Shown piece after piece: positions 4,318-40,293 of a stretch of DNA of 64,000 nt. Under the pieces are notes generated by a model. It was not told the DNA's origin. It did not search any database and saw only the letters and a list, made by a program, of their open reading frames with translations. Position 1 is the stretch's first letter. Each line of letters opens with the position of its first letter. The translations under genes and the position numbers were made by a program. Source of the DNA: a virus; the IMG/VR virus record IMGVR_UViG_3300035670_000033, positions 62,001 through 126,000 of that record; one strand, given 5' to 3'.

Positions 4318-4384
4318 ACTGCGAGACAGCGGTTGTAGTGTTTGGCAAACAATAAACGACTTAAAAGTCAACTCGGGGGGGATT

Positions 4385-19884: not shown

Positions 19885-19969
19885 GTTTTTCACTCCTAGT
19901 GAATTGGATTTGGTTGGTGATTACTTATGTTTCTTTATTGCAGACTTCGGTAAGCACCTAGTCCAGTTA

Positions 19970-21443: not shown

Positions 21444-22678
21444 ATGGTTTCCACAAATCCTTCTTCAACGGCGAGCATTGACCTATCCCATACAACAAAA
21501 AAATTGTCTTTAGTTAGAGCAGCCCTATGACCCTTAGCCGCGAAGAGACGACCAATATCGTCGTCTCCACCGAACTCACTTTTTCTACCGCTGTATCTCG
21601 CCTCAATCATTTCATCAAATTCTGATCTCTCTGTAACGGTGTTCGGGGGAATTGCCACCCTCATCACCGTTCCTTGCATCGCATTATTAATATAGGCGTA
21701 TTGTCTAGCGGTTCTAAGGTCATCCGTAAAATAGATTCCATTAGCCTGATGACCCATACCCGCCCAGTAGTCACCTTCCATAAACTGTTTTGCCAACTGT
21801 TCAGATGTTGACAATCTATTATCAGGGGTGCCAGGTAAATCGGCGTTAAAAACATCCTTAATGCCTCGGTAAGCAATCGTCCAACCCTCTTGTTCCAACT
21901 GTTTCATTTTTTCAGACGAGACAACTTTTGGCTTGCCCGTAAAACCCTGTTTTTCCGCAATTATTTCAAGTTGGACATCTCCATATTGCTTTCCAGCAAG
22001 TTTGTATTCATTCGTTCGCTTTTTTATTTCTTTGTCGCCCTCTGATCTAACTTCAATAAAACCCCTATAGTTTCCAAAGTAAACTTTCAAATCGTCCGTA
22101 ATGTCCTTGGCTCGCTTAAGTATTTTTTTAGTAGGGGCAGGAATATTGTCTTCTCCGTCAGGACCAGTAGTGAACCCGTCGCTATCGCCGTCAAACTCTG
22201 CTACACCACCAATAGGGCGACCTAAAGACTTGCCAGAAAACGAGCCAGTTACAAGCCCACCACCCGGCAAGGTTGCGATGCCAGTAATAGGTTTCTCGTC
22301 AAGGTTCTCCCAACCCCGTTTAGGTGCCTTGTGGTTGCAAACCGCATAATACTTTTTCCCTGCAAGCAGAACAGTTCGTACACCACCACAACCACGAGCC
22401 TTAGAAATAGCAACAGCATCAGCACGATTCTCATAATATGCATCAGACTTTGTTTCTAAACGCTTGGTGCGTTGAACCATTTTCGGCAAAGGTTTTTTAT
22501 TATTTGAAGCACGAACTTTTAAATACTCTTCTTTACCCTTTTTGATTCCCTCATATTCTTCGTGTGAGGCGCAAGGCATCCAACCAGCATCGGTCTCATG
22601 GGCTCCCTGACATCCAAGCATGCGGGCAACACGAAGCGCCTGATCCCTAGTGGTTTTATTCTTTTCGTCTTCAGACAT
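21440..22678 (-). CDS. DGDGDG-tagged protein with ADP-ribosyltransferase-like C-terminal domain
   Basis: A 412-residue protein. The N-terminal third has two cysteine repeats (ARMLGCQGAHE ending WMPC, and SKARGCGGVRT ending AVC). Residues 152-182 hold the tag: LGRPIGG, then the calcium-loop-like DGDSDGFTTGPD, then GEDNIPAP. Residues 255-412 look like an ADP-ribosyltransferase fold: Arg271 in AYRGI, a Ser-Thr-Ser at 290-292, NGIYFTDD followed by ARQYA, and acidic residues around TERSEFDEM. Such enzymes move ADP-ribose from NAD+ to proteins or nucleic acids. T4 Alt is the known example of a capsid-packaged, injected ART. Here the catalytic assignment rests on short motifs, so activity is likely but unproven. 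Confidence 0.65.
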   Translation of the reverse strand: MSEDEKNKTTRDQALRVARMLGCQGAHETDAGWMPCASHEEYEGIKKGKEEYLKVRASNNKKPLPKMVQRTKRLETKSDAYYENRADAVAISKARGCGGVRTVLLAGKKYYAVCNHKAPKRGWENLDEKPITGIATLPGGGLVTGSFSGKSLGRPIGGVAEFDGDSDGFTTGPDGEDNIPAPTKKILKRAKDITDDLKVYFGNYRGFIEVRSEGDKEIKKRTNEYKLAGKQYGDVQLEIIAEKQGFTGKPKVVSSEKMKQLEQEGWTIAYRGIKDVFNADLPGTPDNRLSTSEQLAKQFMEGDYWAGMGHQANGIYFTDDLRTARQYAYINNAMQGTVMRVAIPPNTVTERSEFDEMIEARYSGRKSEFGGDDDIGRLFAAKGHRAALTKDNFFVVWDRSMLAVEEGFVETI

Positions 22679-22941
22679 TATTGTTTTTCTTTTTTAGATA
22701 CTTTTTCAACCTCTGAAGCATATTCCATAGACATCGCGTACTGATCAAATAGTTCATCTATTTTGTCTGCATTCTCTTTGTTCATCAGATACGAGACCAT
22801 TGACTCAAGGTCACCATCTTTGCCATTTTCATTTGCATACCCGTAGGCAATGGCAATAATTTTAGAACGTGTCTCAGGGTTCTTTACTGTCGTTAGCAGT
22901 TGATTTTTGATTGAGTTTTTTTGTTCTGTTGTAAGTTTCAT
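22678..22941 (-). CDS. Small acidic helical protein after the 1048-residue protein
   Basis: An 87-residue, all-helical protein. It begins MKLTTEQKNSIKNQLLTTV and ends FDQYAMSMEYASEVEKVSKK. Its start overlaps the stop of the giant gene upstream by 1 nt and its stop overlaps the ART-like gene by 1 nt, so it is tightly coupled to both. The ending SMEYASE resembles SMSAQYSSD in the 103-residue protein at 26091. A chaperone, packaging adaptor or immunity-type partner of the giant protein is possible by position; no motif decides. Confidence 0.6.
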   Translation of the reverse strand: MKLTTEQKNSIKNQLLTTVKNPETRSKIIAIAYGYANENGKDGDLESMVSYLMNKENADKIDELFDQYAMSMEYASEVEKVSKKEKQ

Positions 22942-25900
22942 TACGCCAACCTCGGTGGTTCCACCCGTATTCTAGGGCGAGCAATTTTTGGTTTCTTAGG
23001 GAGTTTCTGACCAATTTTTTGTTCAGCAAAAGATAGCGTTCCACCACCAAATCCAAGATTTGCTTTAAACCATTGTTTCACATATTCCATTTTTTCCCTG
23101 TCGCCAGTAGGATCATCCAAAGCAAAGATTATGTCTTGATGCTGATACTGCTTACCACCTCGCGCCTGTGCGAGAATTGATTTAATTCTCGCATATTCTG
23201 CGTCATTGTTTATCAATCCGCCAGCACCAAAATCCTCATAAAATTTGAGAGGTGACTGAAGCACCTGTAGGTCTCTGTCTGCCAAGCCATAGTTTCTTTT
23301 GAATCCAACACGAGCCCAAACATATTGTCCATCATCGGCTGCGTTCACCATCGCCTTTGTGACACCTATTTGCTTCAGGTAAAGAAACGCGTGCTGGTTA
23401 TAAATTGTTTGAATATCAGCGCCTCTATCTATTTTGCTTGTCACAAACATTGAATTTTGGCTTACCGTACCCTGCGATACGCTTACACTCCGAGACGATT
23501 TAGCGATTGCTGCTCTTATAACTTCACCGTTTGCGTTGATCTCGTCAAACGTAACCGAAATCTGAAACCCATTTTGAGGAGACACTGTTGCGGTAGCACG
23601 GTAAAGTTTCCCGTTCTTGCCTTCAATTCTTTGGTGGGAATAAGCCTGTTTCAAGTACTCTGCCTTTTGCGGAGCAGTGAGTCTTCCCCATTTTACGGGT
23701 GTCATGTCTTCATATGGTGCACCACCGTTTGGGTGCCGTTGCTTAAGATACTTAGCAAGTTTCCCTTGACGACGTTCAATCGCCTCGTTCACCTGATCAT
23801 TGATCTTCTTCGCTACATCTTCTGGAAGCGGTCTAGGAATATTTGTTGCATCTGGATTGAAAACAAAACCTTGTTTCCTTCTTTCTGATGCTTTCCGTAT
23901 TTCTGGTCCTAATGCTTCTATCAACTGAAGATGACCTTCATATTTGCCAATATCAGACTGTAATTGAGCAATTTTTTTCATTGTCTCAACACGGTTGAAT
24001 TCTTTTGCTTCTGGAGTATTTCCAATAGGTGAACGCATAAGTCTGAATTCTGCGCTTAGTTGTGTTTCTAATTCGGTAAGTTTGGTTCGCACACCCGCGA
24101 CACCACCTTGTGGTCTTACGTATCCGATATATTTTCTTTTTGCCTCGGTGACTAAAGCCGATACATCGGCATCGGGGTTTGCTCGGAGCAAATCAGCAAC
24201 TCTTGAAAGTTCTTTTTGAAAGTTCCGCACCGCTAGTTGGCGACCTTCATTTTGGTTGAACAATGCTTGATCGGCTAGTAATCCAAGTTGTCCCAAAAGT
24301 TTTGGATCTTGCATTTGAAGCAATACTTCTTCAATCAGATCTTCATTTTCTTTTTTGAATTTGGCTGCTTCCATCTTTGGTGGAACATGCTTCAGTTCGT
24401 CTGGAACATCTCGGATATCGCGTGGCGATGGGGTGTCAACACTATTAGCGATCGGAGCGTCAACTGGAGGTTCTCCAGTACGGTTGGCGTCATAGATTTC
24501 CTGCCATGCGTCCCTGTAGTCTTTAATATATGTTTTAATGCGGGCAATATTTATTTCCTCGTCTTGCCTTCGTTCAATGAAGTCATTGTCAGAAAGTTCA
24601 CCTCTAGCAATCGCTTGCTCTATACGCGCTATCCTTGCATCCGCTGCAACTATTTTTTGTGCGGCTTCAACCAATTTCTGTCCGCGTCCAGCGCCAATGG
24701 GTGGGAAGTTGGCGGGGTCATTGATGATCATTATCCTGTCATTTGGCATGACATCATTTAAAACATAACCTTCAAAGTCTCTATCGTTAAGAACTTCATT
24801 CAGGTTAACCCTTTGTCCTGCACCACGCGCTCTATCCGCTCTGGCTTGGCGCATTCTTTCCGAGTTGGCAGCGTTGTCACTGTTGCCGGGTTGTGGGCGA
24901 GCGGGAGATGCCTCTGGTTTTGGTTTTCTGCGTTTAGGTCCTGCTACGGCACGACGCTCTTCCGATTCGGCATCAAGTAGTGCACCAATATCGTTCCTGT
25001 CGGGGTTTGCCCTAGGGCGACGAGGTTTAACTACTTTTGGCTCAACAACTGAGCGTGGAGGCTGAAGACGCCTTACCTCTTCTTCCAACTTAACTATTTT
25101 TTCTCGTTGACGCCTGATTGCTTGTGGCGCCGCACTATTCTGTCGCATCATCTGCAACATGTCTCGTGCTTCGTTAAGATCACGCTCTGCTACTGCGAGC
25201 GGATCGGTCTCATTTGCTCGGCGTGTTGGTGCTTTAGGTTTCTTTGTTGCTTCAACTACGGCACGACGGCGACGGCGAGCAGGCGCTTCACCAGTTCTTG
25301 GTGCACCCGGCTGTTCAATTTCGCGTTGCATTCTTCTTTGTTCTGATTCACGAAGATTTCCTTCACCTCGTGGTCTTGCAGGTTGACGTCTGCGAGCAGG
25401 GCGTGCAGGAGCATTGCGTCGTCTTAGTTCCGCCATTACTCGTTTGTAATCGTCGCTGTCTCTTCCGCCAGTAGCGTTCTCTAATTCGTCGCGCATTTCC
25501 TCTAAAACCTCTAGAGGTTCTGCGGCGAGAAGATTTGCTTCGTCACGGGCAGGGCGAGCGGGTGCTTGTCGTCTGCGTTGCGGACGAGGTGCAGGTGTTA
25601 ACTCTCTAGGTGCTTCAGGTGTGTCAACCGACGGTGGTCGTGCAACAACAGTTCGCCTACGAGCGCCACGAGGACTAGGGGCATTCCCGCCATCCAGTCG
25701 CTCAGCAATACCACGTAAACCTTGCTCAAGACGACCAGCACCACCGCCTTGGGGGTTAAGTCTTGCAAGTATTCGGCGTTCACGACGAGCAATACGACGA
25801 CCACGGCGAGCATCATCAACATTTTCCAACCGTTGACCAATATCTGATATTTGATTAGCGATGCGTCGTGCGACCCCCCAACCGCAAGACCGACCAAAAC

Positions 25901-26087
25901 GATCTGTTATCTGTCCACCATACCGTGTCCCCGTTGGACAGCGCCAGCCTCCACGACGGTTAGTGCCGGGGATAGAAAGACTCGGATCCCACATGGCGCG
26001 AACAGCCTTGACTTCATAAGCAATAGTTGACGTGTTCCGTTCGCTAAGAAAAGATTTTGCCTTAAAGTCGGCGATATTCTGAAGCAT
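22941..26087 (-). CDS. Giant modular protein 1: shared N-terminal module, Pro/Arg linker, GNAT-like C-terminus
   Basis: The 1048-residue protein has four parts. Residues 1-133 are the shared module (WDPSLSIPGTNRRGG, CPTGTRYGGQITDRFGRSC with Cys50 and Cys68, then ARRIANQI and RLENVDD, ending GLRGIAERLDGG). Residues 134-420 are Pro/Arg/Ala-rich and disordered, with GNLRESEQRRMQREIEQPGA also found in the protein at 29708. Residues 430-800 are long charged helices. The C-terminal 230 residues contain LYRATATVSPQNGFQISVTFDE, ADIQTIYNQHAFLYLKQIGVTKAMV cut here by a loop, and YVWARVGFKRNYG, which resemble a GNAT-like acyltransferase fold. That assignment is tentative. It is the last and largest of three paralogous giant proteins between protease and capsid. 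Confidence 0.7.
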   Translation of the reverse strand: MLQNIADFKAKSFLSERNTSTIAYEVKAVRAMWDPSLSIPGTNRRGGWRCPTGTRYGGQITDRFGRSCGWGVARRIANQISDIGQRLENVDDARRGRRIARRERRILARLNPQGGGAGRLEQGLRGIAERLDGGNAPSPRGARRRTVVARPPSVDTPEAPRELTPAPRPQRRRQAPARPARDEANLLAAEPLEVLEEMRDELENATGGRDSDDYKRVMAELRRRNAPARPARRRQPARPRGEGNLRESEQRRMQREIEQPGAPRTGEAPARRRRRAVVEATKKPKAPTRRANETDPLAVAERDLNEARDMLQMMRQNSAAPQAIRRQREKIVKLEEEVRRLQPPRSVVEPKVVKPRRPRANPDRNDIGALLDAESEERRAVAGPKRRKPKPEASPARPQPGNSDNAANSERMRQARADRARGAGQRVNLNEVLNDRDFEGYVLNDVMPNDRIMIINDPANFPPIGAGRGQKLVEAAQKIVAADARIARIEQAIARGELSDNDFIERRQDEEINIARIKTYIKDYRDAWQEIYDANRTGEPPVDAPIANSVDTPSPRDIRDVPDELKHVPPKMEAAKFKKENEDLIEEVLLQMQDPKLLGQLGLLADQALFNQNEGRQLAVRNFQKELSRVADLLRANPDADVSALVTEAKRKYIGYVRPQGGVAGVRTKLTELETQLSAEFRLMRSPIGNTPEAKEFNRVETMKKIAQLQSDIGKYEGHLQLIEALGPEIRKASERRKQGFVFNPDATNIPRPLPEDVAKKINDQVNEAIERRQGKLAKYLKQRHPNGGAPYEDMTPVKWGRLTAPQKAEYLKQAYSHQRIEGKNGKLYRATATVSPQNGFQISVTFDEINANGEVIRAAIAKSSRSVSVSQGTVSQNSMFVTSKIDRGADIQTIYNQHAFLYLKQIGVTKAMVNAADDGQYVWARVGFKRNYGLADRDLQVLQSPLKFYEDFGAGGLINNDAEYARIKSILAQARGGKQYQHQDIIFALDDPTGDREKMEYVKQWFKANLGFGGGTLSFAEQKIGQKLPKKPKIARPRIRVEPPRLA
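25689..26087 (-). repeat. Shared N-terminal module, copy 1
   Basis: Codes residues 1-133 of the 1048-residue protein. It is nearly identical over the WDPSLSIPGTNRRGG to GVARRIANQI core to the modules at 28553-28942 and 32174-32572. The two cysteines are 18 residues apart. Confidence 0.85.
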
Positions 26088-26090
26088 GGT

Positions 26091-26402
26091 TTAAGCCTTA
26101 AAACTTTTTTTATTTGGAAGAGACTTAATTTGATTTTTATACATTTCTTCAGTTACTTGCCCATCAGAACTGTATTGTGCGGACATTGAATTAAGACGGT
26201 AAAGAATATATTCCATTCCGCTTCCCTCCAAAGGGATCTCGTTTCGTGCCGACGATTCTGAAAGAATTTCAATAAGTTGATCAACAAGTTCTTTATCGGA
26301 AGCGTGTATTTCTACAAGTCCATCAATATTTTTTCCAGCGCAAGACCCATTTACCTTGTTTGTAAATGGATCCATGAATTGACCTATAAAAAACTCTCTC
26401 AT
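26091..26402 (-). CDS. Small hypothetical protein after the 959-residue protein
   Basis: From ATG 26402 the protein is 103 residues, with AAGGTG as ribosome-binding site inside the preceding gene (a GTG at 26408 is also in frame). It contains KVNGSCAGKNIDGLVEIHASDKELVDQLI and MEYILYRLNSMSAQYSSDGQVTEEM; only short landmarks are given because the family is unknown. It follows the second giant protein and precedes the third, repeating the giant-then-small order of this region. Confidence 0.55.
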   Translation of the reverse strand: MREFFIGQFMDPFTNKVNGSCAGKNIDGLVEIHASDKELVDQLIEILSESSARNEIPLEGSGMEYILYRLNSMSAQYSSDGQVTEEMYKNQIKSLPNKKSFKA

Positions 26403-26404
26403 GA

Positions 26405-29284
26405 TCACCTTTGGTTACTTGGAATTATGTTGACTATCTCATTTTCGGCGTTGCGAAGGTTTGCAAGACTTCGTACCATGCCATCATAAAGTGCTCCTGC
26501 TCGGGCTTTATTTGAGTCAGTCTTACTTACTTTTTGCAATGCGTCTGTTATGAATTGTTCACGACCGACAGCAAGTGTTTTTTCTGTTTGCACAACAACC
26601 TGTCTGTACACTTCTTGAATTCGCGCATAAGTTTCACGCCTTTGCGCGGCTGACATAGCGGGTAGTGCGGTGCGCATAGTGGCAAGAATGTCCGTGTCCA
26701 TACGAAAACCCCGTTGGTAACGATCAAATAGTCCTCCGTGATCCCTTCCAGCCCAACCCAAGTCCATCGGAACGACATGCGCTAATTTCTTGCCGTCTGG
26801 TAATTCCACTACACGACCCATACCGTTGCCTCCGTGGCGGTCGCTAACACCAAGAATATAGTTGGCTAGAACATTAGACAATCTTTCAGGAAGACCTTTA
26901 TCTGGAAGGGCATTCAGGGCTCCTTTGTTGAAATCGTAGCCACCAGCAGCACCGCCGATTACTGCTCCTTCAGGCACGTCGTTGTGTGCCAGAGGGATCA
27001 TGATGTAGGGGGTTCCTTTTCGGACTGTTCCAAGAGGCTTTCGTACATCTGCTTCAAGTTTACCGTCTTGAATTGCTCCGTCTTCCAAGATCCCTACAGC
27101 AGCCAAGTAGTTCCATCCAATGAGTTCGCCGACATTGTCGGCAGGTTTTGCAGCCTTGAAAACCCATCCCTGATTAGTTGGATTTCCATTTTCATCACGC
27201 AAAAAGTAAATTTTAGTTACACCTACAGCGCCACCGTTGGGTTGTACTTTTTTGAAACGCTTATTCGTGTCTCGTGGATCTGATGAAGCGTTTGCTTCTA
27301 TGGCAATGTGCATGAATTTTGCTGGAACCTTTTGTATGTCTCCACCATTTTTTATATGGTCAATCGCTTTTTGTTCCGTGTTAATTGTTCGGTCTTCTTC
27401 TGAAACAAATTTTCCAATTGGAGAATTCCGTCTATCTATCTTTAATTTGCCATGCGCATTTTTGCTTCTAGCAAATTTTCGGAAAGGAGATTTTTTTTGC
27501 TGTTTTGCTTGTTGCGCTTGCGGTGATGGTGGTGTCCTTGGCGTTGGTGGTTCAGGTGGTTCGCTATTTCCGTTGCTTAGATCCAAAAACTGTTGACTAA
27601 AATCGCGTAAGTAACGATTCAGTGACGCTTGACCCTGTGGACCTCGGTACTCTTGTTCTAGCGCGTCACCATCAACGATATTTCTGGCTAGGAAACCACG
27701 AAATTTTCCGCTTTCTTGTGGGAGTAATTCAATTTCCCAGTTTCCTTTTTTCCATCTAGTTGAACCATCAGGTTGGTTAATAGCGTCCCAACCTTCTCCA
27801 CCAAAATCGGGCATTCTTACATTTGCCCGTGCCGGTGCGCCTCCGTCCCCAGGTGTGACAAAACCGCGACCATCTGGTGAGCGTCGCGGTTGGCGTGCAG
27901 GGCGTGCAGGGCGTGCAGGTGCTGGCTCGGGAATATCATTCGCTTGTGGTTTGCGTGATGCGCTACGACCAGCACCCTGTGCTGTTGCTTGCCGACGGCG
28001 ACGACGGCTATTTTGTGGGCGACGATTACGAGGCGCTGGTGGTTCAAAATCTATTGGTGCTGAACGACCGTGTGCATCTTTCCAAGCATCGCGAAGATTA
28101 TTTTTGTTGATCTCGTACCATTCACGGCGAGTCAACATTCCTGCGTTCCCGCCACCTTCGCGAATTTCTCGTACTCGTTTAGCGTATTCACCATATTTTC
28201 GTAATACATACGGTTTGAAATCTTCTGTTTCACCAGCGTCGGAAGCATCTCTTGCGGTGAGAACATCAACATTTGCTGGTTGTGGTGCAACGCGCGGGCG
28301 TGCCTGTGGTCGTGCCTGTGGGCGTCGTTGTCCTGCTGGTGCTGGTCGGCGTGCAGGACGAGGTGTTGGTGCGGGTGTAGGCGCTGTTTCTGGTATTGCG
28401 TCACGACGACGGTTTCTCGGCACTCGTGCTGGTGCCTCAACTTCAGGTGTTTCGTCGTTGCGTCGTCCACCTCTATTGACTCTTCGGTTAATAGCACCCG
28501 CTAAACCTTCATTGTTTACCCTGTCCAACAAATTCCCTCGCCGTGGGGACTCACCTCCCTCAAGGCGATCAGCGATATTCCGCAGACCGCCTTCAACCCG
28601 ACCAGTTTCCGCAACTCCGCCAAGCCTTCTCATCATTCGTGCGTTACGGCGATCAAGACGACGCTTCCGTTTGTCATCATCTCGTTGTTCTAAGCGTTCG
28701 CCAATGTCAGCAATTTGGTTTGCAATTCGTCGCGCAACTCCCCATCCGCACGAACGACCAAAACGATCTGTTATCTGTCCGCCGTATCTTGTGCCTACAG
28801 GGCATCGGAAACCGCCACGGCGGTTAGTGCCGGGGATGGAGAGGCTTGGATCCCAAACTGCACGAACACCTTTGATTTCAAAATGCGCTGACGAACGAGT
28901 TTGGTCAGAAATAAAAGAAGATGCTTTAAAAGTCAAAACATTTTTGAACTCTTCGTTAGAAAACTCAGAAAGCAAAACTTCAGAAATAGATAAAACTGGC
29001 AGGTTTTTGAATTCCATCGGCTCACTTTGAATATGTGCAAGTGAAGCAACTTTTTTCTGAACTGCTGTTCCTGATGGGCTCGGACCTTCAATTATTTTGG
29101 ATGCATCCATTGACTGAACTAGTTCAGGCTTAGTGATTGGGGTGTCGGCGTATTCTTCGCGGAGTATCCCAACAAGTTCCTTTGCATCTTCCGTCATCGG
29201 TTTGAATGTGGATCCCTTGGGGGTCGTTGAAACAACCATAAATGGTGTGTTGTCACGGTTCTTGATAATGAAAACTAGGTTCAT
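26405..29284 (-). CDS. Giant modular protein 2: shared module and DRHGGN kinase-like C-terminus
   Basis: The 959-residue protein starts with about 110 residues of its own (MNLVFIIKNRDNTPFMVV, EDAKELVGILREEYAD), then the shared module at residues 115-244 with Cys161 and Cys179. A Pro/Arg/Ala-rich linker runs to about residue 580. The C-terminal 330 residues resemble PI3K/HipA-type atypical kinases: a nucleotide-binding strand GWVFKAAKP, the catalytic loop SDRHGGNGMG with Asp815 and Asn820, and a metal-binding Asp841 in PMDLGWAG. These enzymes transfer phosphate from ATP to protein or lipid. The protein at 29708 has a related domain. The N-terminal 110 residues look like one of the small neighbouring genes fused on. 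No membrane segments are seen. Confidence 0.75.
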   Translation of the reverse strand: MNLVFIIKNRDNTPFMVVSTTPKGSTFKPMTEDAKELVGILREEYADTPITKPELVQSMDASKIIEGPSPSGTAVQKKVASLAHIQSEPMEFKNLPVLSISEVLLSEFSNEEFKNVLTFKASSFISDQTRSSAHFEIKGVRAVWDPSLSIPGTNRRGGFRCPVGTRYGGQITDRFGRSCGWGVARRIANQIADIGERLEQRDDDKRKRRLDRRNARMMRRLGGVAETGRVEGGLRNIADRLEGGESPRRGNLLDRVNNEGLAGAINRRVNRGGRRNDETPEVEAPARVPRNRRRDAIPETAPTPAPTPRPARRPAPAGQRRPQARPQARPRVAPQPANVDVLTARDASDAGETEDFKPYVLRKYGEYAKRVREIREGGGNAGMLTRREWYEINKNNLRDAWKDAHGRSAPIDFEPPAPRNRRPQNSRRRRRQATAQGAGRSASRKPQANDIPEPAPARPARPARQPRRSPDGRGFVTPGDGGAPARANVRMPDFGGEGWDAINQPDGSTRWKKGNWEIELLPQESGKFRGFLARNIVDGDALEQEYRGPQGQASLNRYLRDFSQQFLDLSNGNSEPPEPPTPRTPPSPQAQQAKQQKKSPFRKFARSKNAHGKLKIDRRNSPIGKFVSEEDRTINTEQKAIDHIKNGGDIQKVPAKFMHIAIEANASSDPRDTNKRFKKVQPNGGAVGVTKIYFLRDENGNPTNQGWVFKAAKPADNVGELIGWNYLAAVGILEDGAIQDGKLEADVRKPLGTVRKGTPYIMIPLAHNDVPEGAVIGGAAGGYDFNKGALNALPDKGLPERLSNVLANYILGVSDRHGGNGMGRVVELPDGKKLAHVVPMDLGWAGRDHGGLFDRYQRGFRMDTDILATMRTALPAMSAAQRRETYARIQEVYRQVVVQTEKTLAVGREQFITDALQKVSKTDSNKARAGALYDGMVRSLANLRNAENEIVNIIPSNQR
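28553..28942 (-). repeat. Shared module, copy 2 (internal)
   Basis: Codes residues 115-244 of the 959-residue protein. The core matches copies 1 and 3 almost residue for residue, but here the module is internal, after a 114-residue extension, so it need not be at the N-terminus to be kept. Confidence 0.85.
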
Positions 29285-29408
29285 TGTTTACTTTCCACAT
29301 TTGTGAAGGCATTGAGCAAGCCCTGTAAGTCTTGCGTCGCAATATCGCTACTGTAAAATGGTATCACTAACGGCAGATATCAAAATTATGACACTGTAAA
29401 CATATTAT

Positions 29409-29702
29409 TTATTTGTCTAATTTTTTGTGCCCTAATTGAATAAGAAAATTATCAATTTTCTCTTTGCTTGAACCCTCGTATTTTAATATTTCTGCATTGA
29501 GGTAAGAGTACCCATGCAACATGTTTTCAAGAGTCGCCATCTTGGGGGAATTCTTCTTCATAGTTAGGAAATGCTCATTATCTCGTTTGTCGTTATCGCG
29601 ATTTTTTGAGTAATAAGTGATAATCCCCTTATCGTCTTCCACCAAAACAATTGGGGAAGCCTGAACCAGTGGATCCTTAGAGGTGATGATTGCCGCTCTC
29701 AT
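29409..29702 (-). CDS. Small hypothetical protein after the 954-residue protein
   Basis: A 97-residue protein beginning MRAAIITSKDPLVQASPIVL and containing GIITYYSKNRDNDKRDNEHF. It starts 5 nt after the giant gene upstream and is followed by a 124-nt gap before the next giant gene. Its KNRDN stretch recalls the IIKNRDN of the first 15 residues of that next protein, a weak hint of common origin. No function can be assigned. The following gap (29285-29408) holds no gene; an AT-rich stretch there may contain a promoter, but no good -35/-10 pair was found. Confidence 0.55.
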   Translation of the reverse strand: MRAAIITSKDPLVQASPIVLVEDDKGIITYYSKNRDNDKRDNEHFLTMKKNSPKMATLENMLHGYSYLNAEILKYEGSSKEKIDNFLIQLGHKKLDK

Positions 29703-29707
29703 GATAT

Positions 29708-32572
29708 TTACAATCCTAATAGCAAGTCGGCGATCCTTGATGGATCAACATCGGTCAAATATTTCATTTTCTTTTGTGGTCTTTCGCCAATTCTGACAAC
29801 AGCCTGATCTCCAGCCCTTGGATTCGGTGTTCCATCTCCGCCTGTTTTTAGAACATCATTAACCATATTCAAATATGGGTTTTTTCTTTCGGCTTCGCGA
29901 ATAGATTTCTGCACATCGGCAACCGCGGCTATTACCTCACGCCTACTCAGTCTCCCCTGTCTAACCTGTTCGCGAAGAGTTGAAAGCATGTCGTTTCGTC
30001 CACCACCGTAACTATCTCGTAGCCACCCTACAAAACCAGCGTCGTCGCCATCAAATGCTTCAAATGCTCTACCTCCCCAGTTGACATCAAAACCAAGAGA
30101 TGGGTCAATTGGAACAAATCGGAGTTTCCCGTTCGCGTCTGGCGCAACAAAAAAGTTACCACCGTGACGATCTCTATTAACAATTACAAAGTCCATTAAT
30201 GTCGCACGAACACGATCAGACGGCTTTATGTCGCCCATATTCGCAACGTCTCTTCCCAATCGCAGTCTTCCTTCAACATAGTTTCCTGCGTGTTCGTAAA
30301 CTATTGCGCGACCACCGCTATGTGGTACACCATTCCCGCCTTTTTGTTTGCCGTCTAGTCGCAAACCACCAACGGGCATGCCGAAACGACCTGCGAGATT
30401 ATTGCCGACCATTTCGTGAATATCTTCGTTTTCCGCCTGTGCACCAGCCTGATATTTAAGGAAATACTGTTTCCCTGTTACGGAATCCGTAAACATGTGC
30501 ATGTTGTCAGGGATCATTCCGTTAACTCCACCACCAGCATCCTGTTTGCTGAATCTATTCGTCGCACCATGTAACGCTTCTCCCAAGAATTCGTCTGGTA
30601 CGTCGGCTAAATCTCCACCTTGTTCTAGGTGAGCGATTGCTTGTCCCTTGGTGTCAATTCCTTTATTTCCCACAGGAACGCTTTTCACGTCAGGGAGACC
30701 ATCTTCTCCTTTGGAATTTAGTTTCTCTGGTGCGTGATCTTGCTTCGCTGAAGGTGGAGAAACATCCCAACCTCCTTCGGGCTCTGGTATTTCCGCTGGT
30801 CTATCAGGTGGGCGGACTGGAGGTTGTACTCGTGGGGCATTAGGGGCTTCAACATTGTTGTTGGCAACAACAGGAGGTCTTTGCCTGAAGGCAATATCCG
30901 CCTCAATTTCAACAGCCCTTAATTCAGCAGCGGCAACATTCTCTTTAATTTTTTCTTTTTGCGCCCATGATCGCAATAAATTCTCTCGGGCTTCATCTCT
31001 TTCTCTTTGATTTCCGTTTTTCTTAGAACGCCAGTCGTCGTATGCTTTATCAAAACCAGTTTGTGCCTGTTTCAAAAGGTCTTGATATTCATTTTTTTTG
31101 CCTAAAACTTGTTCCCTTGACAGGTTGCGCAAATTGTTGTAGGCGTTTGGCTTGTATCTTGCAACTTCATCTTTGACTATTTTGACCAAATCTTTATCTC
31201 CCGGCTGGTCAAACTCTGCATCTGGGTTTATGTCTCTTGCAGGAATCGGTGGTGGACCTGCTGGTCGTGCGGGTGCTTTTGGTGCGGGCGCTGGCGGTGC
31301 AGGCTGTGGCGCTCCTGCCTGTTGTGCAAATATTTGTTGGTTAACAAAATTGCCACGAGCATTACGCTTATTGTTGTCACCGTAATAGCGACCGAACCTT
31401 CTTTCTAGTTCGGCTCTCTCTTCACCTTCAGGGAAATCTGGTTTACGCCAATACGCATCTTCGGGTAGCCCGCGAAGATCACCGAAACGGTTACGAACAT
31501 TGCGAATAGAAGCAGCGTCTGGAACGCTTCCACCCAACTCGTCTGCTGTTGGATTCCATGCGGGTGGATCAGGAATTGGTGTTGATGGTTTCTGTTGTTC
31601 TGGCGGTTTTGGTGCAGGTTTTCTGCGTGGCACCTTCGTCGGTTCGGGTTTAGCACTGTCAACAAAATCTGCTTCAGGCTTTCTTCTTGCTGTTCGTTTC
31701 GCGCCCTGTTGTGCTGCGGCTCGTCGTCGGCGTCGTGGAGCATTCGGTCTTGGTGGTTCACCTGTACGCGGTGCGCCGGGTTCAACTAATTCTCGTTCCA
31801 TTCTTCGTGCTTCAGATTCGCGAAGGTTCCCTTGTCGGCGAGGTGCTTTTTTACCTCTACGATTCAGTTCCGCGTTAACTTTGTCTAGACGTTGCCGTGC
31901 GGTAGATCTTTGAACACTGACAGGGAGCATACCGATTCTTCCGTCATCACGAGGTTTGTCCACTGCGTCTCGCAGAATGTCAACTGCTCGTTGTGCGTCT
32001 TGATACTGTTTTTCTAGATCTTCATCACTCATAGTGCGAAGGTTCTCTACATATGGATCTTTGTCATCTCGTCTCGGAAGTGCGGGAATATCGCGAGTTG
32101 GCATTACTGGACGGGCTGGAGGTTGCGCAGGGATTCTTGGGCGTGCTGTTGGTCGTGCCTGTTGCGGAGCCTGTCCACCCTCAAGTGCTTCTGCAATATT
32201 TCTTGCACCACGCTCAAGAAAACCTGGCTTGTTCTGACGAGCCAACATTCGTTGTACACGAGCATTGCGTCTTGCCAAACGGTCGTTTCGTTTGCGGTCA
32301 TCAATGTTTTCTAAACGCTCACCGATATCTGCGATTTGGTTTGCAATACGACGTGCAACACCCCATCCGCATGAGCGACCAAATCTGTCGGTTATCTGTC
32401 CACCGTAACGGGTGCCAACCGGGCATCGCCATCCTCCGCGACGATTCGTTCCGGGGATAGAAAGACTCGGATCCCAAATCGCTCTAACGCCTTTTACTTC
32501 ATAACTGAAAGTACTGGATGTTTGTTCAGAGAGGAAAGTAAGAGCCTTAAAATTTACTTCGTTTTTGAGCAT
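29708..32572 (-). CDS. Giant modular protein 3: shared module and DRHGGN kinase-like C-terminus
   Basis: The 954-residue protein begins directly with the shared module (residues 1-133, Cys50 and Cys68). A long disordered Pro/Arg/Ala linker follows, with GNLRESEARRMERELVEPGA in common with the protein at 22941, and a helical segment near residues 480-600. The C-terminal 300 residues are kinase-like: YFLKYQAG (candidate ATP-binding Lys), EMVGNNLAGRFGMPVGG, catalytic loop NRDRHGGNFF with Asp801 and Asn806, and Asp823 in PIDPSLGFD. This is the PI3K/HipA-type signature. HipA phosphorylates glutamyl-tRNA synthetase and halts growth, one precedent for such a fold acting on the host. Substrate is unknown here. 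It abuts the DUF5872 gene upstream. Confidence 0.78.
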   Translation of the reverse strand: MLKNEVNFKALTFLSEQTSSTFSYEVKGVRAIWDPSLSIPGTNRRGGWRCPVGTRYGGQITDRFGRSCGWGVARRIANQIADIGERLENIDDRKRNDRLARRNARVQRMLARQNKPGFLERGARNIAEALEGGQAPQQARPTARPRIPAQPPARPVMPTRDIPALPRRDDKDPYVENLRTMSDEDLEKQYQDAQRAVDILRDAVDKPRDDGRIGMLPVSVQRSTARQRLDKVNAELNRRGKKAPRRQGNLRESEARRMERELVEPGAPRTGEPPRPNAPRRRRRAAAQQGAKRTARRKPEADFVDSAKPEPTKVPRRKPAPKPPEQQKPSTPIPDPPAWNPTADELGGSVPDAASIRNVRNRFGDLRGLPEDAYWRKPDFPEGEERAELERRFGRYYGDNNKRNARGNFVNQQIFAQQAGAPQPAPPAPAPKAPARPAGPPPIPARDINPDAEFDQPGDKDLVKIVKDEVARYKPNAYNNLRNLSREQVLGKKNEYQDLLKQAQTGFDKAYDDWRSKKNGNQRERDEARENLLRSWAQKEKIKENVAAAELRAVEIEADIAFRQRPPVVANNNVEAPNAPRVQPPVRPPDRPAEIPEPEGGWDVSPPSAKQDHAPEKLNSKGEDGLPDVKSVPVGNKGIDTKGQAIAHLEQGGDLADVPDEFLGEALHGATNRFSKQDAGGGVNGMIPDNMHMFTDSVTGKQYFLKYQAGAQAENEDIHEMVGNNLAGRFGMPVGGLRLDGKQKGGNGVPHSGGRAIVYEHAGNYVEGRLRLGRDVANMGDIKPSDRVRATLMDFVIVNRDRHGGNFFVAPDANGKLRFVPIDPSLGFDVNWGGRAFEAFDGDDAGFVGWLRDSYGGGRNDMLSTLREQVRQGRLSRREVIAAVADVQKSIREAERKNPYLNMVNDVLKTGGDGTPNPRAGDQAVVRIGERPQKKMKYLTDVDPSRIADLLLGL
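32174..32572 (-). repeat. Shared N-terminal module, copy 3
   Basis: Codes residues 1-133 of the 954-residue protein. Together with copies 1 and 2 it defines a family of about 130 residues: a variable 27-residue start, the Cys-containing core, a basic helix, and a closing IAExLEGG-like turn. Confidence 0.85.
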
Positions 32573-34288
32573 TTACGATTTCTTTCGCTCTTTCGCGAGG
32601 TCGGGTTTGATGAATGTTTCGTAAAGCCAGCGCGGAGCCTTTCGCTTGACACCATCAGTACCAGTGTATTCAACAAGTTGAAGTGCATCTGGAATCTCAC
32701 CACTGTCAACATTGAATTTGAATGCGCCTTCTGACGCGTTAGCAAAATCTTCAATATTTTTTATGATGTTGTCTTTGTTGCTTGACTCGGCAAGAGAGTT
32801 AATCATTCGCGGAAACTTTCGCTTCTCACCGATAGTGAAAGGACGTGATCGTTCAATACTGATGCTCACACCGTTGGGCGCAACGAAAGCAATTTTACTC
32901 ATTGAAGGACCACCCAATAGCGCTAGGTCATCAGCACCTATGTCAGATGGAAGTTGAACTGCGCGAACCATTGCACCGTCAACCATGTCAGGGTTCTCAC
33001 TGAAGGAACGCAAAACCGATGATGGAACTACAGGGCGAAGAACCACTCCATCTCTGCGGATCATTCGTCCTTCGCCTCGTGGAGCACCCTTCAAAAGACT
33101 CACCGCATCCGACACAGACTTGCCGAACCTATCTTTTTGGAAAGCACCTGTTCTTGGTATTTGCGCCATGCGTTGAATCTGTATGGTGCGCGTATTGCTT
33201 GGATTTCCTTCTAATACTTCAGAAAGGTTTTCTGCTCGTGCTTGTGGAAGTCGTGTGGTTGCCCCTCGTACCGCGCGAGCGGCTAGTGCGAGTGGTCCTG
33301 GTATTTCAAACAGTTGCGCACCACAGGTTGAAAAACGGTTGTCCGTGAATCGTCCACCATATTCAAAACCAGCAGGGCATCGTGCTTGACGCTTGCGATT
33401 GGGCTTTAGTCTACTTAACGCTCCACCGCCCCCACCGGGTACGAGTGCACCATAAACTCGTGAACGGATAGGTGATGTAAGTGGTGAAATGTTCCCCGGC
33501 GTTAGTGCAGAACCAACGGCTTGTGCCGCTCTGCCTGCCGTGCTTCCAGAACCTATAAGTCCTGCTTTCGTTTCCATGTCCTCTGCATCGTCTTTGCCGA
33601 CACGGTATCCACCACCACGTTTTTTATATTCACGAACAAGCCAAGCATTAGCGTAAGCAGATGGGTATACATTGAATTTCTTTTTTGCTTCTGCTTTGAC
33701 CCGTGCATAAAGTTCAGGGTCTGTGGGGATATTTTCGCTCTTGAATTCTTCTCCATCGGACTTAAATGTGGAGACATTGATCGGCTTGTTTTCTTCCCGA
33801 TCTCCTGTTGTTTCTGCTCGTCGTTTTCTGCGTACCGCTGAATCAATTTCTTCCGCAGACATTTTCATGGCGGTAGATTTCTTTACACACTTAGGGTATT
33901 TACCTGAATCTGCGTCCCCGCGACCGCAAGGTTCAAAACCGCCACCTTTTTTAGGGCGTGAAATGTCAACCCATTCTTCTTCAAACCATTTGCCCAAACC
34001 ACCACGCTTGGTTTCATCACCGACGAATGTTTCTGCACCGAGCCTTGAGGAGCGAGACTTCAGGTAAAGTTTTGCTTTGAAGTTTAGAAGAGTTCTGCTT
34101 CCGTCAAGTGGAGTTTTACGAACATCTGATCCTTTAGTAAAAAGGAATTTTGTTTTCGCATTATCAGGATTAAAATAAAGTTCCTCACCCGAGACAATAT
34201 TTGTGCGTTTCATGGCAGTTTTCATGCGCATGGACATACGGAGTTTCCTTGCGAAATACTCAAAGTCTTGGTTGAGGTAGTTGCTCAT
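32573..34288 (-). CDS. DUF5872 protein with a diverged copy of the Cys module
   Basis: A 571-residue protein. Residues 95-160 match DUF5872 (KWFEEEWVDISRPKKGGG, EPCGRG, KYPKCV, then SAVRRKRRAE), and the segment YPSAYANAWLVREYKKRGGG near residue 205 is the companion motif usually found with it. DUF5872 is known from large aquatic phages and giant viruses; its function is not established. Residues 295-350 contain a diverged form of the shared module: ARCPAGFEYGGRFTDNRF, then a Cys, and later ENLSEVLEG. The C-terminus is an alpha/beta region ending in a basic tail. It abuts the 954-residue gene. Its position and the common module link it to the giant proteins. Confidence 0.75.
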   Translation of the reverse strand: MSNYLNQDFEYFARKLRMSMRMKTAMKRTNIVSGEELYFNPDNAKTKFLFTKGSDVRKTPLDGSRTLLNFKAKLYLKSRSSRLGAETFVGDETKRGGLGKWFEEEWVDISRPKKGGGFEPCGRGDADSGKYPKCVKKSTAMKMSAEEIDSAVRRKRRAETTGDREENKPINVSTFKSDGEEFKSENIPTDPELYARVKAEAKKKFNVYPSAYANAWLVREYKKRGGGYRVGKDDAEDMETKAGLIGSGSTAGRAAQAVGSALTPGNISPLTSPIRSRVYGALVPGGGGGALSRLKPNRKRQARCPAGFEYGGRFTDNRFSTCGAQLFEIPGPLALAARAVRGATTRLPQARAENLSEVLEGNPSNTRTIQIQRMAQIPRTGAFQKDRFGKSVSDAVSLLKGAPRGEGRMIRRDGVVLRPVVPSSVLRSFSENPDMVDGAMVRAVQLPSDIGADDLALLGGPSMSKIAFVAPNGVSISIERSRPFTIGEKRKFPRMINSLAESSNKDNIIKNIEDFANASEGAFKFNVDSGEIPDALQLVEYTGTDGVKRKAPRWLYETFIKPDLAKERKKS

Positions 34289-34416: not shown

Positions 34417-34617
34417 TCAGCCGTCTTGTTTTACTGGCTCCCAATATCCTCGGGAAAGAACCGAGTCAATCATGACTTCCGTTTGGACGCCGTTCCCCAT
34501 TTGTATGAAACCCATTCTCCTAGACACACCTTCCACAGGGCTGTCATGGGTGTAAAAAAGTTTATCGTTACCCCTGTTGGCTATGTGCTGATTGTTGACT
34601 AAGTGCTGATTTTTCAT
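34417..34617 (-). CDS. Small hypothetical protein coupled to the DUF3626-like gene
   Basis: A 66-residue frame whose ATG (34617) overlaps the TGA of the gene upstream in an ATGA junction, a strong sign of coupled translation. It contains NRGNDKLFYTHDSPVEGVS and MGNGVQTEVMIDSVLSRGYW. The family is unknown. Of the 325 nt between the large genes here, this frame fills most; nothing is seen in 34289-34416. Confidence 0.5.
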   Translation of the reverse strand: MKNQHLVNNQHIANRGNDKLFYTHDSPVEGVSRRMGFIQMGNGVQTEVMIDSVLSRGYWEPVKQDG

Positions 34618-36290
34618 ACAGGCGATTCTTCCTCTACTAATTCTTGTTCTGTCTTCACCACATCCATAATTGTCCCCGACTGCACATCAAACTTTTGATT
34701 TTTCCTTACAGGTGCGACACGAATGCCTGCTTTTTCAAGTTTTTCTCTGATGGTTTCAAAGTCTTTTTCGGTGACACTGTTACCAAACGGATCGTTGTCG
34801 TCAACGGCGATAACGGCAAATTCAACGTCTCCTGTGGATACGCCTCCGTGCAATTGTGCTTCCGCATACTCAATTTTGTATGGACTCCAAACCGCATCTG
34901 CGCTTGGTGTGCCAATAGGTGCTGGTTTGTAGGTAGGTCTTCCGAGACTGTCTCCACCTGTATATGTTGAGCGCGACTCAATGTCTTTTTTCATCATCAA
35001 CTGAATGGCACCATAAGTTCTGACTTCGGTCAACGAATCACGGTCAACCTTCCCGTTCTGTGTGAGATATCCGTAAATAGGACGCTTTGACGGCTCAACA
35101 CTTGGGTGGTACCCCAACTGAACAGCCTCTGATTGTGCGCGTTGACCAAAATCCAAAGTACCCATAGATGTACCTGTTTCAAACTGCGATTTGAAACGAC
35201 CAGATTCAAGTATCTTGTCCAAAACATCGGGTTGTACTGCAATTGTCACGCGCGAGTTTTCTATGGTTTCTTTCGCTGTTTGCAAACGACGCTCTTCACT
35301 AAAGTTTTCATCAAAGGCGGTGACGTTTCCGGCTCTAGTTTGCGCCTGCCATCTTTTGTGTCTGAGTAAATCAACTTGTGCTTCAACAATTATTTTTGTT
35401 TCATCTGAATTGAAACCTAGATTTCCGTATTCAGTTGTTGCTATTTTCGCGTAGGCGTCCATCAGATCTGTTACTTCGCTGTCTGTTGTATTTGGATCTT
35501 GAATTAACGGCAAAGAACGATCATATTTATCTTGTACTGAACTTGGGAAAGTCCCAACTAGAAGCATCTTCAATGGTCTTCCAGTTTCCTTTGCTTCGGC
35601 GATGTCATCTGTTGGGGTGCGAACATCATCAAGTTCTTTTTCTTTTTCTTTTTTATCTTTACGCCTTTTCAGGCTTGCTAGCACAAAGTTTCTTGCGTCA
35701 ACCGCAGCATCTTTTTTGAGTTTTGACGCAACCGCTTCCAACTGTTCTTTTTTCTTGTCAGATATTTTGCCTCGTTTATGTAGCGAATCAGAAGCAAAAT
35801 CCAATAGTTGCCCCCCACCAACCCTTAATAGCATCGCGCTCATGAGTGTGGAATCAGTAAGAGAACCTGAACCGTCTACATGCATATAATCTAATGTTTG
35901 TAAAGCCAAGAGCGCTGTTGCTTTTGCGCCATTCCTTATATTTTCGTTTTTTAGGATGCCTCTAGCACCATCAATGAGTTTCCCAGCCATAGAAGCCGCC
36001 CCGCGGGCTGCTGATTCAGCAGAAGGTGTAAGACAGTTTGACATTTGCATGTCGGTAAATTGGTTCGCATTTGGAGTTCCGGGCGGGCATCGTAGTTTGC
36101 CTGATGAGTCAACAATAACACCAGCGGCTCGCGCTGCTCTTACTCCAACAGAACCTAGTTCGGGTTTATCTTTGATCGTCGGACCAAGAAAACCTTTGAA
36201 TAAAAGAATGTTATCTTGGACAACTTTCACCGACTGAAAATAGTCGGCTACTCTCTCGTTTGCGTCAAATGCGCGAGACGATTTGCTCAT
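34614..36290 (-). CDS. DUF3626-like protein, possible ADP-ribosyltransferase fold, with Cys module
   Basis: From ATG 36290 (GGAGGAG site) the protein is 558 residues. Residues 70-100 hold a diverged Cys module: KLRCPPGTPNANQFTDMQMS followed by Cys. A helical region follows. The C-terminal 260 residues resemble DUF3626: RPIYGYL, then RTYGAIQLMMKKDI, then SRSTYTGGDSL, then EYAEAQLHGGVSTGDVEFAV. The Arg, Ser-Thr and Glu-x-Gln landmarks are in the order expected of an ADP-ribosyltransferase-type fold, so it may modify proteins with ADP-ribose, but I rely on short motifs. It is the first large protein after the protease-proximal genes and overlaps the 66-residue gene. Confidence 0.6.
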   Translation of the reverse strand: MSKSSRAFDANERVADYFQSVKVVQDNILLFKGFLGPTIKDKPELGSVGVRAARAAGVIVDSSGKLRCPPGTPNANQFTDMQMSNCLTPSAESAARGAASMAGKLIDGARGILKNENIRNGAKATALLALQTLDYMHVDGSGSLTDSTLMSAMLLRVGGGQLLDFASDSLHKRGKISDKKKEQLEAVASKLKKDAAVDARNFVLASLKRRKDKKEKEKELDDVRTPTDDIAEAKETGRPLKMLLVGTFPSSVQDKYDRSLPLIQDPNTTDSEVTDLMDAYAKIATTEYGNLGFNSDETKIIVEAQVDLLRHKRWQAQTRAGNVTAFDENFSEERRLQTAKETIENSRVTIAVQPDVLDKILESGRFKSQFETGTSMGTLDFGQRAQSEAVQLGYHPSVEPSKRPIYGYLTQNGKVDRDSLTEVRTYGAIQLMMKKDIESRSTYTGGDSLGRPTYKPAPIGTPSADAVWSPYKIEYAEAQLHGGVSTGDVEFAVIAVDDNDPFGNSVTEKDFETIREKLEKAGIRVAPVRKNQKFDVQSGTIMDVVKTEQELVEEESPV

Positions 36291-36302
36291 CGTCTCCTCC
36301 AA

Positions 36303-37897: not shown

Positions 37898-38101
37898 GTT
37901 CGTGGACTCCTTGTAGTGCATCGTTTTAGCGATACACCTTGATGGATTAGAGCAAACAGAGCATGGCGTCAGACGCTTTTCGCCTGACATCAAACACTGA
38001 TACTTTGCTGTTTTTTGTGGTAAACCTGTTATTGAAGTATAACTCATAATAGTGTTTTGTTTCTGCTACAAATGGAACCAATACAAAAACCGTATGATTA
38101 T

Positions 38102-40201
38102 TTACATTGAGTCCATAATGTTGAGAAGCGCATCAAAGGCATCATCTTCAACATCACCGATTTCAACTTGTACACCCTCTTCCGTGACTTCTGATTTCAT
38201 CTGATAATAATCCAAAATCGGATCAAGAAGTTCTTTCACTTCATACAGGGAGTGCTCCGACGAGGAGATGAGAAGCATTTCTTTTTCATCACCCAACAGT
38301 GATTTTGCTTCAATATCCGAAGAAACGCCACCAGCATTAAGAACTTCTTTTAGAAGATTGAAAGCGTTTTGCAGTTTTGTCATATTGCGAGAATTAATGA
38401 CTCGTCCTGCCTTCACCTCAATGTCTTCGTCGGCATCTTTGCCCATAAGTTCCGAAATAGCCGCCATAAGCATGCCCATCATTTGCTTTGGGTCTTTGCC
38501 CCCGCCGCCACAACCACAGTCGTCATCGTCTCCGTCTCGGGAGTATGGCATCTCTACAACGCCACCATTATCATCGTCGCCTTCCATGACCCAATTGTCT
38601 TTATCAGCCATGTAGTTGATGAAATCTGGTTCAGCGTTCATGAATTCCTTAAGAGCCTCATACGCTTTTTCGTTGCCCTCGTCTTCGTTCTCAAACTCAA
38701 CATCTTCCATTTTCATGGTTTCTTCTGTTTCATCTGATTCAGCCAAACGACTAGCCATAGCCTCCATCATTTCATAACCCTTTTCCTCAGAGTCAAGGAA
38801 GTCAAATATTGACTTGATTTCTTCTTCAGTCATGGATTCAATAGACTTTCCGGGTTTGAGCACTCCGCCGAGACGGTTATTAAACTCACTGTCATCCCAA
38901 TTTCGTTTGCGTAGTTTTCCACGACAATTCTTCATGCCCGGATGATGGCATCCTTCGTTCGGCCAGAGACCCGTTGTTTCGTGATGCAACCAAGCACAGA
39001 TATTGCTCAACGGGTAAAGTTCTGGATGATTTGCAAGGATTACTCGGCATCGGCGGAATCCGCCCGGCTTGCGCATGATTGGGCGCCAGTAGCGAAGTAG
39101 TTTTTCAAGGTTCCCACGACGCGGACCGTATCCACGGGTTCGTGCGGTAACAATTTCCTGAGGGATTATTCCGCCAAGTGGGTCAGCCTTTTCAGGTGAC
39201 TTTGGCTTAACACCAGCAGGTACTTGTGGGTCTTCATCCATGCGGTAGCGGTCTTCATAACGGCGTTCACCATCAGACCCGCTAGGCGTATCGCCGTCTG
39301 CGTTGATATAGACGGTTTGTGGCTTAACCCTTGTTGGTTCGCCGAACATGAACTGTCCATCTTCAAAATGGTAGGAGACACGCATAGTGGTAATTCCACC
39401 CTGTTCGCCTCTGTGGTCAAAGATGACGCTGTTCGCATCTGATTCCCTTAACCGTACTGCTCCACCAAACTTCTTCGCTAAAGCAAGCGGAAGGTTCTCT
39501 TTGCGTCCCTTTGCTGGCATTGGAGCATCAACCGCATCATCATCTTCTTCTTCACGAGGCTTCTGCCTGTTCATGCTGTTAGCGAGAATACGCATAAGCA
39601 AAGAACGACCTTGTTCTGTTAACTTGCCATCACCATCGCGCATTTGACCTTTGATTTCAGAATCATCTGTTTGATTTTCAACCGACTTTATTGAAATCGT
39701 GCCAGTCAGTTGGTTTGCGCCATGAAGCACAGGGCTTGCTTCATAGAGTTCAACTTTTTTCAAAACATTTGCTTGACGCTGTGGGTCAAAGTCCGCATCT
39801 AGAGTCTTGTAGCCAATTGACCATTCTTGTTCTTCGCCAAAGAAAGCAACATCAGCGAAAGCCTGTCGTCCTCGTTCGGACTTCAGGTTGAACTGAACTT
39901 TCGCGTACAGACCGCCGATACCAGCGGCGCGCATTTTGATAGGAAGTCGTGGGTCAGAAGGTGGAACTTCATACATTTCAAGGACTTTGCCGATTGGCTC
40001 ATTCCAGTTGTGTCCCCATACAACACGGGGTTTGCGCCTTTTCAGGCTTTCCGTGAACGCGCCGGGGACGATGATGTCGCCTACAGAGTCCTTGTTGCCA
40101 ATTCCCGCGACGAAACATTCAACAACGCCGAGTGCCTCGTCAATATTGAATTGACCCTGAAGGGCTTTATATTGCTGTGTTTCTGATAATGCTGTTGGCA
40201 T
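38102..40201 (-). CDS. Prohead protease (HK97/S78 family) with long C-terminal extension
   Basis: From ATG 40201 (GGAG upstream) the protein is 699 residues, about three times the usual protease length. Residues 1-165 are the protease: EALGVVECFVAG, the loop with His64 in VVWGHNW, and Ser128 in EWSIGY, the catalytic His and Ser of the family. It matures the prohead by cutting scaffold, capsid delta domain and possibly cargo proteins. The extension includes EQGRSLLMRILANSMN, then GGFRRCRVILANHPELYP with CAWLHHETTGLWPNEGCHH, a Cys/His-rich block that may bind zinc, and an acidic tail with DCGCGGGG. The extension could be a fused scaffold. It lies 92 nt after the portal gene. Confidence 0.88.
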   Translation of the reverse strand: MPTALSETQQYKALQGQFNIDEALGVVECFVAGIGNKDSVGDIIVPGAFTESLKRRKPRVVWGHNWNEPIGKVLEMYEVPPSDPRLPIKMRAAGIGGLYAKVQFNLKSERGRQAFADVAFFGEEQEWSIGYKTLDADFDPQRQANVLKKVELYEASPVLHGANQLTGTISIKSVENQTDDSEIKGQMRDGDGKLTEQGRSLLMRILANSMNRQKPREEEDDDAVDAPMPAKGRKENLPLALAKKFGGAVRLRESDANSVIFDHRGEQGGITTMRVSYHFEDGQFMFGEPTRVKPQTVYINADGDTPSGSDGERRYEDRYRMDEDPQVPAGVKPKSPEKADPLGGIIPQEIVTARTRGYGPRRGNLEKLLRYWRPIMRKPGGFRRCRVILANHPELYPLSNICAWLHHETTGLWPNEGCHHPGMKNCRGKLRKRNWDDSEFNNRLGGVLKPGKSIESMTEEEIKSIFDFLDSEEKGYEMMEAMASRLAESDETEETMKMEDVEFENEDEGNEKAYEALKEFMNAEPDFINYMADKDNWVMEGDDDNGGVVEMPYSRDGDDDDCGCGGGGKDPKQMMGMLMAAISELMGKDADEDIEVKAGRVINSRNMTKLQNAFNLLKEVLNAGGVSSDIEAKSLLGDEKEMLLISSSEHSLYEVKELLDPILDYYQMKSEVTEEGVQVEIGDVEDDAFDALLNIMDSM

Positions 40202-40293
40202 GACGCTCCATATATGTTGGTTTATAAACAATAAACCATTTGAAGCGTCAAAAAAGGAACACTTTCAGTATAACTAGGTTATTTTACTGAAAA

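Follow-up and report, generated by a model that had tools for sequence, protein, structure and literature searches.

Effectors carried in phage heads have precedents in T4 Alt, the polyvalent proteins and MuF fusions (PMC5512222, PMC5576092). The MuF polymorphic toxins of temperate phages are encoded among the head genes, join a conserved N-terminus to a variable C-terminal effector and have cognate immunity genes; the word "kinase" is absent from the paper describing them (PMC5576092). Polyvalent proteins are likewise large proteins of virion context that are predicted to be injected, and they include ARTs as well as kinases of the Ser/Thr/Tyr superfamily, which have lost their C-terminal subdomain and come chiefly from Verrucomicrobia/Chlamydia and Bacteroidetes phages (PMC5512222). 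A related kinase fold is found in the HipBA, HipBST and HipJ systems, and in HipBST and HipJ a small cognate gene adjoins that of the kinase (PMC8262856). PI3/PI4-kinases, CotH, Fam20C and CtkA resemble the domains described below in fold and catalytic residues.

Here, we analyze a 64,000-nt stretch (the window; 62001-126000 in a virus record of 138,071 bases) whose head operon encodes two kinase-like proteins, at positions we term slots A and B, and find that each kinase domain and the small partner gene downstream of it are exchanged between related phages as one cassette. The swap pattern is like that of a toxin and its antidote and suggests, by analogy, interchangeable weapons in the virus particle. 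Compared with MuF toxins, the locus has a different 70-aa tag and PI3/4K-like kinase effectors, and no integrase was found across the record, itself a fragment outside which one could lie. By domain search the MuF domain resides in the portal protein and is absent from slots A-C, so we do not class the kinases as MuF toxins. Compared with polyvalent proteins, the window has a PI3/PI4K/HipA fold, one recognized enzyme domain per protein and a co-swapped partner; compared with the Hip systems, it has a DRHxGN motif, a partner without HipS-like sequence and fusion to a head-operon tag. The kinases are 7-15% identical to PI3/PI4-kinases, CotH, Fam20C and CtkA, and no lipid-kinase accessory domains were seen.

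The window carries a WhiB-like regulator gene (4274-4738, E 1e-14), an actinobacterial host signature, and the nearest isolates by major capsid protein are Gordonia and Brevibacterium phages; together these point to an actinobacterium as the host of this uncultured virus. Read along the minus strand, the operon runs in the following order, with the two kinase genes between those for the prohead protease and the major capsid protein:

40294..42504, minus strand: portal fused to a MuF domain (domain search)
38102..40231, minus strand: prohead maturation protease
36566-38047, minus strand: PepSY-like protein, between the protease and slot 0
34614..36302, minus strand: slot 0 protein, ending in DUF3626 and bearing a related Cys motif (RCPPGTPNANQFTD...C)
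32573..34288, minus strand: DUF5872-region protein, 571 aa, with a Cys motif as in the slot 0 protein (RCPAGFEYGGRFTD...C)
29708..32572, minus strand: slot A protein, 954 aa, with an N-terminal tag, an Arg/Pro/Ala-rich linker and a predicted C-terminal kinase of family K1
29409..29702, minus strand: slot A partner gene, 97 aa, family S0, starting 9 nt beyond the final sense codon of the kinase gene
26405..29284, minus strand: slot B protein, 959 aa, with an N-terminal extension of ~130 aa, the tag, an Arg-rich linker and a predicted kinase of family K2
26091..26408, minus strand: slot B partner gene, 105 aa, family S3, which overlaps the stop codon of the kinase gene
22941..26087, minus strand: slot C protein, 1048 aa, with the common tag and a non-kinase C-terminal domain
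22678..22941, minus strand: 87-aa protein following slot C, 54-95% conserved and not swapped
21440-22678, minus strand: protein with a weak ART match, 3' of the 87-aa gene
20037-21443, minus strand: further protein, between the weak-ART protein and the major capsid gene
18571..19893, minus strand: HK97-type major capsid protein

An earlier note had read the slot A and B proteins as giant phage proteins ending in paralogous PI3K/HipA-type kinase-like domains. Both open reading frames are real; at 950-960 aa, "giant" overstates their size. The position in the head operon, the small gene paired with each kinase and the exchange of cassettes go beyond that note. The domains are:

29711..30745, minus strand: slot A kinase domain, aa 610-954, with K706, E720, DRHGGN at 801-806 and D823
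26408..27442, minus strand: slot B kinase domain, aa 615-959, with K710, E720, DRHGGN at 815-820 and D841

The Asp and Asn of the catalytic loop (D801/N806 in slot A, D815/N820 in slot B) and the downstream metal-binding Asp (823 and 841) lie where the note had placed them. We aligned 15 C-terminal domains, most of them 20-27% identical to the first sequence, and found nine invariant positions alone: K, E, two G, D, R, H, N and D. These include K706, E720, D801, R802, H803, N806 and D823 in slot A and K710, E720, D815, R816, H817, N820 and D841 in slot B, which adds an invariant lysine and glutamate to the residues that the note had named. The strong divergence of the two paralogues was also confirmed: the kinases are about 25% identical, against 87% for their tags, and fall into separate families, which makes different substrates plausible. 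Their profiles align over 313 columns (E 4e-38, the two sets having two sequences in common).

The common module attributed to the pair is genuine, 71 aa long and 87% identical between the two proteins, but it is not specific to them, as slot C carries a third copy:

32303..32515, minus strand: common tag, slot A (WDPSLSIPGTNRRGGWRCPVGTRYGGQITDRFGRSCGWGVARR...)
28679..28891, minus strand: common tag, slot B, 87% identical to the slot A tag
25818..26030, minus strand: common tag, slot C, 89% identical to the slot A tag

Tag identity is 83-89% among these slots and a distant phage. A looser Cys motif, CPxG...TD...C, occurs in five open reading frames of the whole 138-kb genome, all within the head operon; 200 shuffles gave none. 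Between tag and C-terminal domain the linkers are rich in Arg, Pro and Ala, with Ser and Thr together making up just 5-7%. Among 49 complete tagged proteins from viral contigs, 37 have the kinase motif and the other 12 the slot C domain, a split biased by the collection of some tagged loci via their kinases; a tag-only search of viral contigs yielded no third kind of C-terminus. The tag was found at 47 loci in environmental metagenomes and in no bacterial genome, and tblastn searches of 50,697 isolate records, with the tag, the slot A protein, a slot 0 kinase and a relative's kinase as queries, gave no match under the thresholds applied.

Comparison with a related phage, L003, revealed how the kinases vary. 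DNA homology along the window is lost at 30803 and returns at 29371, then is lost at 27526 and returns at 26087, resuming before or at the next gene. Each gap of ~1.4 kb thus holds one kinase domain and its downstream small gene:

29372..30803, minus strand: slot A cassette (kinase domain and partner), without DNA homology to L003; flanks 85-89% identical
26088..27526, minus strand: slot B cassette (kinase domain and partner), without DNA homology to L003; flanks 87-89% identical

At slot A the N-termini of the two phages are 100% identical, the kinases 25% identical and the partners unrelated; at slot B the N-termini are 95% and the kinases 22% identical. Across related phages, tag modules are 82-100% identical where swapped kinases are 20-25% identical. 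Kinase and partner families match as K1-S0, K2-S3, K3-S1, K4-S2 and K5-S5, and in 148 of 148 pairs the same partner family went with the same kinase family (shuffles: mean 21.6, maximum 45). Within homologous slots across phages, kinase identity follows partner identity (r = 0.96 and 0.94) and is independent of the identity of the kinase's own N-terminus (r = -0.01 and 0.12), a contrast that speaks against shared whole-genome ancestry as the cause of the match and led us to reject it. The slots combine in several ways: K1+K2 in the window, K1+K5 in L001, K1+K3 in L005 and L076, and K0+K3 in L003, L004 and L013. Two features by which polymorphic toxins are recognized are therefore observed here, a conserved N-terminus with an exchangeable C-terminal domain and a cognate gene that is swapped along with it.

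The partners gave no significant match to PDB or Pfam and resembled no known immunity protein, and no orphan copies were found elsewhere in the genome. We also considered the partner as a HipS-like protein or HipA N-subdomain and found no sequence similarity to either. Two of the partner profiles, A7 and A8, may form one family, since hhalign pairs them over most of their length (E 2e-5, probability 76%).

On the strength of these sequence patterns we consider it reasonably probable that both genes code for polymorphic kinase effectors that are associated with the virion and have a dedicated partner each. The Cys-containing N-terminal tag would most likely load the protein into the procapsid or anchor it there, while the Arg/Pro/Ala-rich linker, probably disordered, would hold the protein with the DNA or let it thread out. 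The C-terminal PI3/PI4K-like kinase would then enter the next host cell along with the DNA and phosphorylate a molecule of the host or of a competing phage. The ~100-aa partner would most likely be an inhibitor that silences newly made kinase in the producing cell, and recombination would swap the kinase-partner cassette and keep tag and linker, giving each phage different kinase pairs. Packaging and ejection are suggested by the head-operon position, the MuF-fused portal, the confinement of the Cys motif to the operon and the fact that viral proteins annotated "phage head morphogenesis" match the kinase model. The proposal would combine three known themes, namely head-carried effectors, growth inhibition by PI3K/HipA-fold kinases and the pairing of polymorphic toxins with cognate partners. 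Counting against the proposal, slots A and B exchange kinase for kinase, whereas classical polymorphic toxins change activity freely.

For the partner, a kinase-specific chaperone, packaging adaptor or activator, swapped because it must fit the kinase fold, is a possible though secondary reading, and as chaperone or activator the partner would fit nearly as well as an inhibitor does. Effector-specific helpers are common in delivery systems, and the small gene either comes immediately downstream of the kinase gene or shares bases with its end. Fam20C, which the slot B model matches in fold, has an activating partner, Fam20A. A packaging adaptor, by contrast, is expected to track the tag, and the partner tracks the kinase alone; we therefore prefer inhibition to a packaging role. 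Since no integrase was found, the partner probably does not serve lysogen immunity, and in a probably lytic phage a late inhibitor is less obviously needed, which counts against the inhibitor. A somewhat unlikely variant holds that virion-delivered kinase and immunity serve phage-phage competition, the kinases disabling cells or rivals and the partner protecting cells infected by the same type; this would account for both the exchange of matched pairs and the free combination of slots.

To place the domains structurally, we compared confident AlphaFold models of the slot A kinase (pLDDT 85.0, pTM 0.87) and the slot B kinase (pLDDT 80.0, pTM 0.81) with known folds. By VIA-align, the slot A model matches CotH (Z 14.3 over 251 residues), PI4KII alpha (13.6), CtkA (12.2), actin-fragmin kinase (12.1) and HipA (11.4), and the slot B model CtkA (9.7), PI4KII alpha (9.6), Fam20C (9.5) and HipA (9.5); the slot B scores are modest, and its top matches are all kinases of one group. 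HipT is also among the fold matches. The PI3K/HipA-type kinase fold anticipated by the earlier note is thus supported by prediction, and by motif and modeled fold the domains belong to the broad PI3/PI4K-fold kinase group.

The prominence of CotH raises the alternative that the kinases work at home, phosphorylating head or internal proteins of the phage itself while it is being assembled, as CotH phosphorylates spore coat proteins, and their location among head genes would suit such a role. We regard this as unlikely. CotH substrates differ from Arg/Pro/Ala-rich, Ser/Thr-poor linkers such as those found here, and capsid assembly offers no clear reason to swap kinases of 20-25% identity together with a partner in phages whose tags are 82-100% identical.

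At the sequence level, PF00454 (PI3/PI4-kinase) is matched by 18 of 20 relatives (best E 6.9e-9) and HipA_2 by nine of the 20 (best E 1e-5), more than chance would give. In a direct Pfam scan the window's own two domains score 12-14 bits against PF00454, below its gathering cut-off of 27.1, and family assignment was therefore made through relatives, two of which exceed that cut-off (L030, 31.5 bits; L105, 27.2 bits). The PHROGs family phrog_3162, whose function is unassigned there, matches 19 of the 20 kinases. Searched against solved structures, the slot B profile finds PI4K beta (PI4KB) and PI3K alpha first (E 0.002-0.004), and the slot A profile gives weak matches alone, led by Golgi casein kinase, Fam20-type xylosylkinase and PI4K.

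These results bear on a quite unlikely reading, that each kinase-partner pair is a toxin-antitoxin module of the HipA family, joined to a phage protein and targeting tRNA synthetases. In its favor, HipA and HipT are among the fold matches, and HipJ kinases also have small downstream HipS-like antitoxins (PMC8262856). However, the catalytic motif of E. coli HipA is DGHAKN, whereas both window kinases have DRHGGN and the group DRHxGN; profile comparison of slot A (E 0.0019) and slot B (E 0.086) with HipA covers the catalytic loop only, and neither kinase gave a full-length profile match to E. coli HipA. We therefore leave the domains outside the HipA family; the partners, moreover, are not HipS-like in sequence, and PF00454 is the more widely matched model. 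"HipA-type" is thus true of the fold only: the closest family by sequence is that of the PI3/PI4-kinases, and by fold CotH outscores HipA for slot A. That the domains are catalytically dead structural folds, their motif kept for stability only, would agree with their sub-threshold Pfam scores and is very improbable given a full catalytic set invariant at 20-25% identity and strong purifying selection (omega 0.04-0.24 wherever synonymous change is unsaturated, in kinases and partners alike, indicating that both are maintained).

The neighboring slots behave differently. The slot C C-terminal domain is conserved, lacks the kinase motif, is not exchanged between phages and has no family or PDB match; it contains DGQYVWARVGF and looks GNAT-like by eye only. 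Slot 0 of the window has a DUF3626 C-terminus (E 6e-10) where relatives have kinase K4 and partner S2, and its gap holds no partner-like open reading frame. Separately, the proteins at 21440-22678, 20037-21443 and 16147-16965 have another motif in common, roughly DGDxDGxxTxGxDGEDNIP, possibly a second tag; in the first of these it stands beside the weak match, which is to ART-PolyVal.

Among isolates, Gordonia phage GMA6 and Brevibacterium phage Cantare have a related capsid protein and large predicted effectors between portal and capsid genes, in GMA6 an ART, a 2H phosphoesterase and an HNH. They differ from the window in their N-terminal motif, YxGxPxGTxI, and no DRHxxN kinases were present in the proteins checked. 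That motif lies on large proteins at the same operon place (GMA6, L123:7660-8775 and L123:8772-11801; Cantare, L122:7662-10784), the first GMA6 protein being the ART and the second having the HNH domain. The cultured haloarchaeal virus HSTV-2 encodes in its head gene region a PF00454-type kinase, gp16 (E 1.5e-5, DRHYGN), without the tag:

L128:10647-12339: HSTV-2 gp16 kinase, its end overlapped by the 76-aa gp17

For gp17 as a homologous partner we found no support, as no homology was detectable, and we dropped HHTV-1 gp13, taken for that virus's 1100-aa fold-search match, which has no DRHxxN motif.

Virion-carried effectors are already known, and databases annotate single phage proteins as PI3K-like. 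What appears to be new is a dedicated small gene for each kinase and the joint exchange of the two as a cassette inside a phage head operon; in the literature searched we found no description of phage-head kinases of the PI3/PI4K type that are exchanged together with a partner. Relatives of this phage are found repeatedly in environmental metagenomes, yet the tag and the tested kinases are unmatched in isolate records at the thresholds used, and HSTV-2 gp16-gp17 offers a cultured model for such kinases. If the proposal holds, it would provide a tag for modular delivery, a large natural collection of kinases paired with an inhibitor (or helper) and a route to the host or rival molecules that phages phosphorylate within minutes of infecting a cell.
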